Positions 44,972 through 49,415 of a stretch of 64,000 nt of DNA are shown in pieces. Under the pieces are notes generated by a model that searched no databases, had not been told where the DNA came from, and was given only the letters and a program-made list of their open reading frames with translations. The DNA comes from Aliidiomarina iranensis (GTDB lineage Bacteria; Pseudomonadota; Gammaproteobacteria; Enterobacterales; Alteromonadaceae), in NCBI RefSeq assembly GCF_003987135.1, contig NZ_PIPJ01000001.1:62001-126000 (forward strand), written 5' to 3'. Each line of letters starts with the position of its first letter. Position 1 is the stretch's first letter. A program made the position numbers and the translations under genes.

Positions 44972-47794
44972 ATGCAACGCATTCCAAAGCAGCCTTTTAT
45001 TCTGGTTGATGGTTCTTCATATCTTTTCCGCGCATTCTATGCGCCTCCGCATTTAACCAATTCGGCTGGAGAGCCCACAGGAGCCATTTATGGCGTAGTG
45101 AATATGCTACGAAGTTTGTTAAAGCAATTTGAACCTACGCATATGGCGGTGGTGTTTGATGCCAAAGGTGGCACGTTCCGCAACGAAATGTATGCGGAAT
45201 ACAAAGCGAACCGCCCACCTATGCCCGATGATCTGCGCTCGCAAATTGAACCGCTACACAACATTATTCGCGCCATGGGGCTACCGCTCATTTCCATTGA
45301 AGGTGTGGAGGCAGACGACGTGATTGGCACGCTTGCTCAGCAAGCGGCGAAAGAGGGCCGAACTTGCTTAATTAGCACCGGCGATAAAGATATGGCGCAG
45401 TTGGTGAATGATCATGTGATTTTAATCAACACCATGACAAGCACTGTATTGGATGAAGCTGCTGTGCCGGAGAAATATGGTGTGCGGCCGGATCAGATGA
45501 TTGATTTTCTCGCTCTGATGGGGGATAGCTCAGATAACATTCCCGGTTTACCCGGCGTGGGTGAGAAAACGGCATTAAAAATGTTAGAAGGCATGGGTAG
45601 TATTGCGGCAATGATTGAAAACCCGGATAAGTTGGCAGAGCTGAGTTTTCGGGGTGCGAAGTCAATGCCAGATAAAATCCGTGAGCATAAAGATATCCTT
45701 TTACTCTCCCAAGCTCTTGCAACCATTAAGCTCGATGTGGAAATGGCGCTCAAGCCTGAAGAATTAACCCTAAGTGAACCAGACGACAACGCGCTTGCCG
45801 AGCTTTATAAAGAATGTGAGTTTCGCCGCTGGCTATCGGAATTGCTGGCAAAAGGCCAAGAAGCGCCCGAGCATCAGGGCAAAGCAAGAAATTCAGGAAG
45901 CCAAACTGAGTTGCTTGCGGGGATGGATGCTCCAAGTGATAGCGATGAAAACGAGGAAATGGCGCCCATTGATACGAGTGCTTACGCCACTATCACCGAT
46001 AAAGACACATTCAAAACGTGGTTGGAAAAATTAACGAAAGCCGAATACTTTGCCATTGATACGGAAACAACCAGTTTAGATTACATGGAGGCTGAATTGG
46101 TCGGTATTTCCTTTGCTGTGGCGCCTGGTGAAGCGGCTTATGTGCCTCTTATGCATCAAGATCTCGATGGCCCCCAGCAGTTAGAGCGCGATTGGGTTTT
46201 GACTGAATTGAAGCCGCTTTTAGAGGATACGAAAGCGCAGAAGATAGGCCAGAATATTAAATATGATATGCATGTTTTCCGCCGTTACGATATTCATGTT
46301 CGCGGTATTTTGAACGATACTATGTTGTCGTCTTATGTATTGAACAGCACCAGCTCACGCCACGATATGGATACCCTAGCGCTCACGCACTTGGGCCACA
46401 AAACCATTGCTTATGCCGATGTGGCGGGAAAGGGCGCAAAACAAAAACGTTTTGATGAGGTGCCAATAAGCCAGGCATCACCTTACGCCGCAGAAGATGC
46501 GGATATTACCTTGCGATTGCATGAAGTGTTGTGGCCACGGGTAAAGAAAGAAGGGCGCTTACAGGAAGTGCTACGAGAAATAGAGCTCCCTTTAATTCCG
46601 GTGCTGGCGATGATGGAACGCCGCGGTGTAAAAATTGATCCGGACCAACTCGCCAAGCAAAGTGCTGAAATTACAAAGGAGCTTGCCGAGATAGAAAAGG
46701 AAGCTTTTGAAATCGCAGGTGAACCCTTTAATTTAAATTCAACCAAACAGCTGCAAGCCATTTTATTTGAACAGCTCGGTTTACCGGTTAAGAAGAAAAC
46801 TCCGAAGGGTGCGCCCTCAACTGCCGAAGAGGTTCTGCAAGAGCTGGCGCTTGATTACCCATTGCCGGATCTGATTCTTCGTCACCGAGGTATGGCGAAA
46901 TTGAAATCGACCTACACTGATAAGCTGCCGCGAATGATTAAAGCGAGTACCAGCCGTATCCATACCTCTTATCATCAAGCGGTTACGGCAACTGGGCGGC
47001 TTTCTTCAACCGATCCGAACTTACAAAATATTCCGATTCGAAATGAGGCGGGCCGAAGAGTGAGAAAGGCCTTTGTAGCACCTGAAGGCTATAAAATTGT
47101 AGCTATCGATTATAGCCAGATTGAACTGCGAATTATGGCGCACATCTCACAATCACCGGGTTTAGTGGAGGCCTTTGCTCGCGGCCGCGATATTCATAAA
47201 GCTACCGCTGCAGAAGTTTTTGGTGTGGCCTTAGATGATGTTTCGAGCGAACAACGGCGGCGCGCGAAAGCCGTGAATTTCGGTTTAATTTACGGAATGT
47301 CGGCCTTTGGTTTGGCGCGGCAACTGAATGTTCCGCAGAAAGATGCGCAACATTATATGAATGTTTATTTTGAGCGGTTTCCGGGTGTGCAGGAATACAT
47401 GGAACGCACGCGTGAAAGCGCGAAAAAACACGGCTATGTAGAAACAATTTGTGGCCGGCGGTTGTATTTACCCGAAATCAACGCGGGTAATGGTATGCGA
47501 AGAAAAGCAGCGGAACGGGCAGCGATTAATGCGCCAATGCAAGGTTCGGCTGCCGATATCATAAAAAAGGCGATGCTGGATGTAGCGGCTTGGTTAAAGA
47601 ATCCTGATAACGTGAATGAGGGTGATGTATTCCTAACGATGCAAGTTCACGATGAACTAGTATTTGAAATCCGTGAGGAAAAAGTTGATACCTACGTGAA
47701 ACAACTGGTGGAAGTAATGGAGCAAGCGGTGAAATTAGATGTGCCGTTGATCGCTGATGCAGGTGTTGGTGATAATTGGGATGAAGCACACTGA
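44972..47794 (+). CDS. polA: DNA polymerase I
   Basis: 940 aa; E. coli 928. All three activities look intact: 5'-3' exonuclease (about 1-290; VFDAKGGTFRNEMYAEYKANR, GVEADDVIGTLA), 3'-5' exonuclease with the acidic pair in AIDTETTSLDYME (about 363), and polymerase with IDYSQIELRIMAHIS (motif A), RRRAKAVNFGLIYGMSAFGLA (motif B) and QVHDELVFE (motif C). Processes Okazaki fragments and repairs gaps. Preceded by an unusually rich 588-bp gap and followed by a candidate small RNA. Confidence 0.99.
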   Translation: MQRIPKQPFILVDGSSYLFRAFYAPPHLTNSAGEPTGAIYGVVNMLRSLLKQFEPTHMAVVFDAKGGTFRNEMYAEYKANRPPMPDDLRSQIEPLHNIIRAMGLPLISIEGVEADDVIGTLAQQAAKEGRTCLISTGDKDMAQLVNDHVILINTMTSTVLDEAAVPEKYGVRPDQMIDFLALMGDSSDNIPGLPGVGEKTALKMLEGMGSIAAMIENPDKLAELSFRGAKSMPDKIREHKDILLLSQALATIKLDVEMALKPEELTLSEPDDNALAELYKECEFRRWLSELLAKGQEAPEHQGKARNSGSQTELLAGMDAPSDSDENEEMAPIDTSAYATITDKDTFKTWLEKLTKAEYFAIDTETTSLDYMEAELVGISFAVAPGEAAYVPLMHQDLDGPQQLERDWVLTELKPLLEDTKAQKIGQNIKYDMHVFRRYDIHVRGILNDTMLSSYVLNSTSSRHDMDTLALTHLGHKTIAYADVAGKGAKQKRFDEVPISQASPYAAEDADITLRLHEVLWPRVKKEGRLQEVLREIELPLIPVLAMMERRGVKIDPDQLAKQSAEITKELAEIEKEAFEIAGEPFNLNSTKQLQAILFEQLGLPVKKKTPKGAPSTAEEVLQELALDYPLPDLILRHRGMAKLKSTYTDKLPRMIKASTSRIHTSYHQAVTATGRLSSTDPNLQNIPIRNEAGRRVRKAFVAPEGYKIVAIDYSQIELRIMAHISQSPGLVEAFARGRDIHKATAAEVFGVALDDVSSEQRRRAKAVNFGLIYGMSAFGLARQLNVPQKDAQHYMNVYFERFPGVQEYMERTRESAKKHGYVETICGRRLYLPEINAGNGMRRKAAERAAINAPMQGSAADIIKKAMLDVAAWLKNPDNVNEGDVFLTMQVHDELVFEIREEKVDTYVKQLVEVMEQAVKLDVPLIADAGVGDNWDEAH

Positions 47795-47918
47795 TTTTAT
47801 TGAATATTTAATGGGAAACTTTTTGTGCAATCGCCACTCATAGTAAGTGAGCGTATTGCTCTCCCAAGATGTTTTCCCTGGACATCGTTTACCCCGGCTA
47901 AATAGCCGGGGTTTTTTA
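47783..47918 (+). ncRNA. Candidate small RNA downstream of polA (Spot 42 position)
   Basis: Three successive hairpins: GCAAT..ATTGC enclosing CTCA..TGAG (47827-47859), GATGT..ACATC (47868-47886), and a GC-rich terminator stem with T run. A possible promoter within the end of polA reads TTGATC (47747-47752), 18 bp, GATAAT (47771-47776). Spot 42 (spf) occupies this polA-engB position in enterobacteria and also has three stem-loops, but I see no clear primary-sequence match to it. The 5' end is a guess. Confidence 0.4.
47892..47917 (+). terminator. Intrinsic terminator downstream of polA
   Basis: CCCCGGCT (47892-47899) and AGCCGGGG (47904-47911) with an AAAT loop and six T. Confidence 0.92.
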
Positions 47919-47955
47919 TGCTTAGGGCTGAATACCAACCCTGCAACGACGCTTC

Positions 47956-48597
47956 TTAATATAGGCCGTTAATGTATTTTGATAGAATTTCGATATCACG
48001 GTCGGTTAAACGCGTTGCGATGTCGCGCATCATACCATTTGGATCGTTGGCGCGGTCGCCAGAGCGGAACATCTCAAGCTGAGCTTGGGTATATTGCGCG
48101 TGTTGGCCGCTGAGCATTGGGAATGCCGCTAAGCCCATACCCGCACCACTAGGGCCATGGCAGGCTGCACAGGCTGTAATGCCACGATCGGTATCACCGC
48201 CCATGAATAAACGTTGAGCTTCGGCTACGATGTCTTCATCTACTGAACCAATCGCATGTTCTTGTGAGCTATAGAATGCAGCTAAGTCATGCATATCCTG
48301 ATCGCTAAGGTTCACCACTTGGCCAGCCATCAATGCGTTGTTACGGCCTCGTTCGCCATTACTTTCAACGCCTTCGCGGTAATCCATTAACTGCTTCACT
48401 AAATATTTATAACCTTGGCCGGCGATATTTGGGAAATCGCCCGTTGGGCTATTGCCTGATTGACCATGGCACGCCGCACAGGTTACCGATTTCTCTTGCC
48501 CGGCTTCTGCGTCACCCTTCAGACCTTCTGAATCTGAAGCCATTGCTGCTCCGCTGGCGAACAGCATCAAACCACATAGAATCGCGAGTTTTTTCAT
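47956..48597 (-). CDS. Cytochrome c4 (diheme)
   Basis: 213 aa. Signal peptide MKKLAILCGLMLFASGAAMA, then two similar cytochrome c domains, each with a CAACH heme site (about residues 40 and 142) and a Met ligand candidate (NNALMAGQV; PNGMMRDIA). Periplasmic electron carrier, usually feeding cbb3-type oxidases. Convergent with polA; in Pseudomonas and Vibrio cytochrome c4 also lies beside engB and polA. Confidence 0.94.
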   Translation of the reverse strand: MKKLAILCGLMLFASGAAMASDSEGLKGDAEAGQEKSVTCAACHGQSGNSPTGDFPNIAGQGYKYLVKQLMDYREGVESNGERGRNNALMAGQVVNLSDQDMHDLAAFYSSQEHAIGSVDEDIVAEAQRLFMGGDTDRGITACAACHGPSGAGMGLAAFPMLSGQHAQYTQAQLEMFRSGDRANDPNGMMRDIATRLTDRDIEILSKYINGLY

Positions 48598-48773
48598 GAG
48601 CTCTCTTCTCTGTCTTCTCTTCGTTTTCGGCTGGGCAAACGCCCGGGAAAAATTCAGGTTCCTATTTTACACGAATCTCGCCACGATGAAACGTTTGAAT
48701 CGTTGTTCTGTGGTTGGCTCAACTGCATTCATGGGTCATAATAGGCATCATTCAAGATTTATCGAGGTTTATA

Positions 48774-49415
48774 GTGAGTACTGATACCCTGCATTTCCAG
48801 AACGCCCACTTTGTTACGAGCGCTCCGGATATCCGCCATTTGCCTGCCGATGAAGGCATGGAAGTAGCATTCGCTGGGCGCTCAAATGCCGGCAAATCAA
48901 GTGCTCTGAACGTGCTTACTCGGCAAAAAAGCCTTGCCCGCACAAGTAAAACACCGGGCCGTACGCAGCAAATTAACGTGTTTGGCTTAGATGATCACCG
49001 CCGCTTAATTGATTTACCCGGCTATGGTTTTGCAAAAGTGCCACTTGCTATGAAATTAAAATGGCAGCAGGCGCTTTCAGAATATTTAGAAAAGCGGAAT
49101 TGCTTGCGTGGTCTCGTGGTGTTGATGGATGTGCGCCACCCCATGAAAGATCTGGACCAAGAGCTAATTCATTGGGCGGTTGCCAGTGATTTGCCGGTAT
49201 TAGTGGTGCTCACTAAGATTGATAAACTGAAAAGTGGTCAACGAAAAGCTGCGCTAATGCAAATTCAAGAGGCCATCCCGGGGTTTGGGGGCGATGTATC
49301 GGTTATTTTATTTTCTTCGCTGAATAAAACGGGTTTGCCGGAACTCGAGCAAAAACTTCATTATTGGTTTGCGAACCCGAAGGATCCGGAAGTTGAGGAA
49401 GCTGCTGATTCATGA
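48774..49415 (+). CDS. engB: Ribosome biogenesis GTP-binding protein EngB (YsxC)
   Basis: 213 aa from GTG at 48774, chosen for GAGG 6-7 nt upstream and the [20 protein letters not shown] start; an in-frame TTG at 48714 is unsupported. GTPase for 50S assembly. G1 [10 protein letters not shown] near residue 35, G2 [13 protein letters not shown]3 DLPGYGFA, G4 LTKIDK, all intact. Overlaps the following EamA gene by 4 bp (ATGA). Confidence 0.97.

Follow-up and report, generated by a model that had tools for sequence, protein, structure and literature searches.

The window analysed here, a 64,000-nt stretch of the Aliidiomarina iranensis genome, carries a candidate small-RNA gene in the gap between polA and engB (yihA), on the polA strand. 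This is the place known for ErsA and for Spot 42 (spf), and the first-pass annotation of this DNA was right to propose a small-RNA gene at the spf position. The features of the locus are collected in Table 1. The convergent reading frame that shares the gap was typed by eye, as its top NCBIfam match reached 54.6 bits, below the cut-off of 330. The conserved unit extends from 47816 to about 47917.

Table 1. Features of the polA-engB locus (positions in the window).
Feature	Position	Strand	Evidence or remark
polA, DNA polymerase I, upstream anchor gene	44972..47794	+	NF004397 1222.2 bits, TIGR00593 950.7 bits, both above cut-offs
-35 element AAACTT, sigmaE-type promoter	47816..47821	+	alignment of eight genus copies
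-10 element TCATA, 16 nt past the -35	47838..47842	+	alignment of eight genus copies
Predicted small RNA, ~70 nt	47847..47917	+	conserved block in 8/17 genus genomes; start uncertain by a few nt
Hairpin A, GAGCG-UAU-UGCUC	47849..47861	+	pairs kept 8/8; GU, AU and GC at the last pair
Linker UCCCAA, unpaired in the fold	47862..47867	+	complementary to purine-rich ribosome-binding sites
Hairpin B, GAUGUUU-UCCCU-GGACAUC, probable pairing core	47868..47886	+	AAGATGTTTTCCCTG invariant 8/8
Intrinsic terminator	47891..47917	+	9-pair stem 47891-47912 plus T run; both-side changes at 3 pairs
Cytochrome c-type ORF, convergent, between polA and engB	47956..48597	-	type assigned by eye
engB/yihA, other flank of the locus	48714..49415	+	TIGR03598 240.6 bits, cut-off 124.45

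The putative promoter is of the sigmaE type. Its -35 element is AAACTT in four of the eight genus copies, among them the window, where it is one base off the GAACTT of the other four; the -10 element reads TCATA in five copies and TCTGA in three, and the two elements are separated by exactly 16 nt in every copy. PMC1804206 gives the published sigmaE motif as -35 GGAACTTTT and -10 GTCAAA. The genome encodes its own RpoE (327.6 bits, above the curated cut-off), followed by an ORF that reads by eye as rseA, and a GAACTT-N16-TCTAG sequence resembling the promoter of the RNA gene stands 106 nt upstream of the rpoE start.

A different promoter, TTGATC-N18-GATAAT, had been suggested initially. The two hexamers are indeed present at 47747-47776 (+), but they are polA codons, unconserved and not above shuffled expectation; among eight relatives they occur together only in the genome itself, TTGATC without GATAAT being found also in G012, and we rejected them as a promoter. 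A scan of 47400-48500 returned one promoter-like site, not above the shuffles (mean 2.1), and one terminator-like site (shuffle mean 1.2), counts that alone say little.

Folding of 47783-47918 gave a minimum free energy of -42.5 kcal/mol (z -4.17) that none of 200 shuffles equalled, and the narrower interval 47847-47919 gave a z of -4.97. The predicted fold contains the stems at 47827-47859 and 47868-47886 and the terminator after polA that the first-pass annotation had described. Its picture of a three-hairpin RNA stands in that a conserved RNA gene with hairpins and a terminator is present, but the hairpin at 47827-47859 was misassigned: of its eight outer pairs 8, 7, 6, 5, 3, 2, 2 and 2 are kept in the eight genomes, and this outer stem fades across relatives, its left arm being part of the promoter. 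All eight genus RNAs are predicted to form a 5' hairpin, hairpin B with the loop UCCCU, and a terminator. Hairpin A is extended to GAGCGC/GCGCUC in three genomes, and the linker region carries UCCC in five copies and UCUCCU in three. The seven pairs of hairpin B are kept in 8/8 copies, yet six of them never vary, so that their pairing is little tested by the comparison. Across the eight-copy alignment, which was fitted to the fold model and is hence biased towards it, all 152 of 152 pair cells are standard, with both-side changes at four pairs (reached by 3/500 shuffles); the count of further pair types was not above the shuffles (450/500 reach it).

polA was detected in all 17 genus genomes, and the RNA block follows it in eight of these (G000, G001, G002, G004, G006, G012, G015 and G016). 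It is absent after polA in the other nine (G003, G005, G007-G011, G013 and G014; regions L045-L053), and a search elsewhere in these nine genomes with R1, a model built from five genus copies, found no good match (best E 0.0084); a weak DNA match in G011 appeared unrelated by eye. An opposite-strand, transporter-like gene (by eye) seems to lie directly after polA in these nine members, so the RNA may have left with a rearrangement. The exact core AAGATGTTTTCCCTGRACATC occurred at eight loci in the species-genome collection, of which six belong to Aliidiomarina, one to 'Idiomarina sp.' and one to Blautia, the last being taken as a chance match. Over 295 family genomes R1 gave matches with E<=0.01 in 133, mostly weak. 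Of 23 R1 loci read outside the genus, 14 lay beside polA by tblastn and the other nine (two at contig edges) were dropped. Next to polA the model recovers the RNA at 12 loci of genus g28 and at two of g3, and GAACTT-N16-TC precedes 14/14 of these polA-adjacent copies.

The DNA after polA was also read in three wider sets: another 28 genera of the family, 27 genomes from the remaining families of the order, and 88 families of the class (one genome each). The order set is 27 of 31 sampled genomes, leaving aside G062, two genomes without a polA match, and G046, in which no polA stop was found. Of the 136 class genomes that had a polA match, 88 form the class set, and G000 and G017 were counted in the other sets. 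Distances from polA are approximate for G025, G029, G031, G063, G065 and G072, where the stop was set in the wrong frame, and the stretches of G043 and G072 end at contig ends after about 200 nt. GAACTT-N16/17-TC occurs within 400 nt after polA in 11/28 other family genera (shuffles: mean 0.41, maximum 3) and 16/88 class genomes (mean 0.85, maximum 4), and in 0/27 genomes of other order families (mean 0.34, maximum 3), where a relaxed promoter was found in two genomes at N16 and one at N17. The reverse strand gave 2 and 0 at spacers 16 and 17 in the class, and 0 and 0 in the family. When the spacer was varied from 8 to 26, both sets peaked at 16 nt: 10/28 in the family, where the other 18 spacers gave 0-2 each, and 16/88 in the class, with at most four at any other spacer.

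Downstream of this promoter a C-rich motif is common in the class regions. CTCCCT lies 5-85 nt past the -10 element in 14/22 promoter-bearing class regions (shuffles: mean 1.97, maximum 6), and in 1/66 promoter-less regions, read at a fixed 30-110 nt. In the other family genera CTCCCT was barely above the shuffles (3/13, shuffle maximum 2), while CTCCC and TCCCT (4/13 each, shuffle maximum 5 each) were not beyond them; the genus RNAs have CTCCCT in 0/8 and TCCCT instead in 8/8. Six class examples were predicted to fold into multi-hairpin RNAs with C-rich loops, and 20 promoter-bearing class loci gave no Rfam match at cut-off.

Two other accounts of the locus have to be set against a gene with its own promoter. 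If the conserved hairpins merely closed the polA mRNA, as its terminator and as stabilising structures, perhaps with processing to a 3'-UTR RNA but with no promoter of their own, their position directly downstream of polA on the shared strand would be explained, and 3'-UTR-derived RNAs are a known kind. We regard this as unlikely, given that the -35 and -10 elements are kept at fixed spacing in all eight copies and that the promoter peak across family and class is specific to one spacer. The distance from the promoter to the polA stop also speaks against it. Five copies have 20-21 nt here, whereas G006, G002 and G001 have 81, 98 and 111 nt, respectively; in these three genomes polA lies 60-90 nt farther away, yet the promoter remains locked to the RNA.

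The other account, raised by the first-pass annotation, is a diverged Spot 42, CRP-repressed and acting on carbon metabolism. It shares with the RNA of the window the position after polA, the hairpins and the C-rich terminator at the end; we nevertheless hold it to be highly improbable, as both the promoter type and the sequence differ. The sequence had already been described as unlike Spot 42, and no Rfam model matched at cut-off anywhere in the window. The Spot_42 model (RF00021), whose use had been proposed as a check, was not listed at E<=10 in 47600-48200, and its best match genome-wide lay on a different contig and reached 25.1 bits, where the cut-off is 80. The block GTAGGGTACAGAGGT, which we take to be the 5' block of Spot 42, is seen in relatives; GGTACAGAGG, from that 5' block, was found neither in the window nor in 800 kb of the 2.65-Mb genome. 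With the promoter relaxed to A/GAACT(T/A), N16/17, within 560 nt, 12 of the 28 other family genera combine the Spot 42 5' block with a sigmaE-type promoter, four have the promoter only, one the block only and 11 neither. In those 12 genera the block and the promoter occupy separate places, side by side after polA, and the Rfam model backs Spot 42 in five of them, one above cut-off; this tandem arrangement contradicts a diverged Spot 42. The first-pass alternative of a replaced Spot 42 comes closer, in that only the neighbouring RNA was found here. Farther afield, the Spot 42 5' block follows polA in 9/27 genomes of other order families (L116, L121, L136, L145, L150, L152, L160, L161 and L162) and in 0/88 class genomes. 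Among these nine order genomes only L116 has a site resembling the sigmaE type; it is a GAACTA variant and lies 528 nt past polA.

We consider it probable that the locus is an independent gene encoding a regulatory RNA of ~70 nt, transcribed by RpoE and probably pairing with ribosome-binding sites. The sequence shows a conserved RNA gene distinct from Spot 42, with a sigmaE-type promoter of fixed spacing and a predicted fold, in a genome that has genes for RpoE and for Hfq (the latter above cut-off). Such an RNA would be expected to act like the sigmaE-dependent MicA, RybB and ErsA. In the mechanism that we propose, envelope stress would free RpoE (sigmaE), which would transcribe the RNA from AAACTT-N16-TCATA (47816-47842), and transcription would end at the terminator. 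Pyrimidine-rich single strands, in the UCCCAA linker and in the UCCCU loop of hairpin B, would then be exposed; probably with Hfq, they would base-pair to target mRNAs at purine-rich ribosome-binding sites, and this pairing may lower translation of the targets.

One possible target is the leader of an SlmA-like gene (by eye), where CAGGGAAAACA stands just before the ATG at L290 (G000:C1:340631-340647, -) and L293 (G004). In the window's own genome this sequence is complementary to the RNA core UGUUUUCCCUG over 12 perfect pairs, with a duplex energy of -25.0 kcal/mol; we treat the slmA pairing as a lead only. The pattern CAGGGARAACA..ATG gave 16 matches in 16 genus genomes, against one for a control pattern; two of the 16 are the reverse strand of the RNA gene itself, and six of the 14 others lie directly before a long ORF. 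A scan of pairing energies over 699 ORFs, with start sites picked by a simple rule, found no enrichment of exported-like proteins (17.5% of the top 40 versus 19.3%), and slmA was not among the 25 ORFs listed. A TonB-dependent receptor-like gene (by eye) is preceded by CAGGGAGAACAT before its ATG at L291 (G005) and L296 (G011), both genomes being without the RNA after polA.

A studied RNA at this same place is ErsA. As described in PMC8575079, PMC7565897 and PMC5819304, ersA lies in the polA-engB gap of P. aeruginosa and depends strictly on sigma22, the functional homologue of sigmaE; the RNA is 132 nt long, with three stem-loops (SL1-SL3) and a 34-nt U-rich domain II. The pseudomonad family was located through PrrF (1/369 class genomes above cut-off), and the polA 3' regions of 50 of 57 genomes were read. 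The strict promoter at N16/17 was present in 34/50, with a peak at a spacer of 17 (29/50), 16 genomes at 19 and seven at 18. The copies carry GAACTT-N17-TCAGA after polA on the polA strand, and eight chosen examples measure 136-137 nt from the -10 element to the end of the T run, which corresponds to an RNA of 131-132 nt if transcription starts five bases after the -10 element. From place, promoter class and length we infer that the pseudomonad RNA after polA is ErsA. The RNA of the window resembles it in the polA-engB location, the sigmaE/sigma22-class promoter, the 5' stem-loop and the terminator, but it is about 70 nt long, has a spacer of 16 rather than 17, and consists of three hairpins with only a short linker where ErsA has its long U-rich domain. 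The window RNA is not assigned as ErsA, since it fails on length and sequence.

Whether the two are nonetheless related by descent is a separate matter. The reading that the window RNA is a sigmaE-dependent RNA of independent origin or remodelling, rather than of ErsA-type descent, draws on its length of about half that of ErsA and on its body: local alignment of the RNA without its terminator to four pseudomonad RNAs scored lower than the means of the shuffles, and of eight class RNAs G453 alone stood out (6/300 shuffles as high). R1 scored 9.1-11.0 bits on the six pseudomonad loci listed and gave mostly low scores on class loci, the highest being 32.4 bits in L093, and the strict promoter is absent from the other families of the order. 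On the other side, place, strand and promoter class are common to the family, the class and the pseudomonads, and UCCCUG follows the 5' hairpin in 8/8 genus RNAs and many class RNAs. We judge independent origin to be possible though doubtful. Descent from an ErsA-type RNA is plausible from place, promoter and C-rich motif, while direct sequence comparison lends it no support. The broader proposal, to which we give even chances, is that an old family of envelope-stress RNAs, spread across the class and without an Rfam model, has its home in the site after polA. ErsA would be its studied member, Spot 42 would have been added beside it later within one order, lineages would have kept one, the other or both, and the Aliidiomarina RNA would be a reduced member, with the promoter and a single pairing hairpin retained. 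In the literature covered, which takes in few subscription papers, we saw ErsA-type RNAs described for Pseudomonas only.

Among other known systems, MicA and RybB (about 70 and 80 nt) are likewise short RNAs from promoters with the sigmaE motif given above, but according to PMC1804206 they are located in the luxS-gshA gap and the ybjK region, and no Rfam model for either reaches its cut-off here. Below threshold, the best Rfam matches include anti-hemB (RF02837; 27.7 bits, cut-off 49.5) and Betaproteobacteria_toxic_sRNA (RF02278; 25.4 bits, cut-off 50), in both cases a likeness through the C-rich linker and terminator.

These comparisons separate Spot 42, which serves carbon metabolism, from a putative envelope-stress RNA with the same genomic address. 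If the class-wide reading is true, ErsA belongs, as its studied member, to a widespread group, and marine genera with apparently both RNAs would allow a direct test of how the polA-engB gap evolved, including which RNA came first and where the two coexist. In a separate observation, L067, L074, L075 and L078 (- strand) share a block, GTCGTTAGGTGCTT(T/A)AACTAAGCTCC, and a terminator after the end of an ilvC-like gene (by eye), and this block is possibly a further 3'-end RNA.
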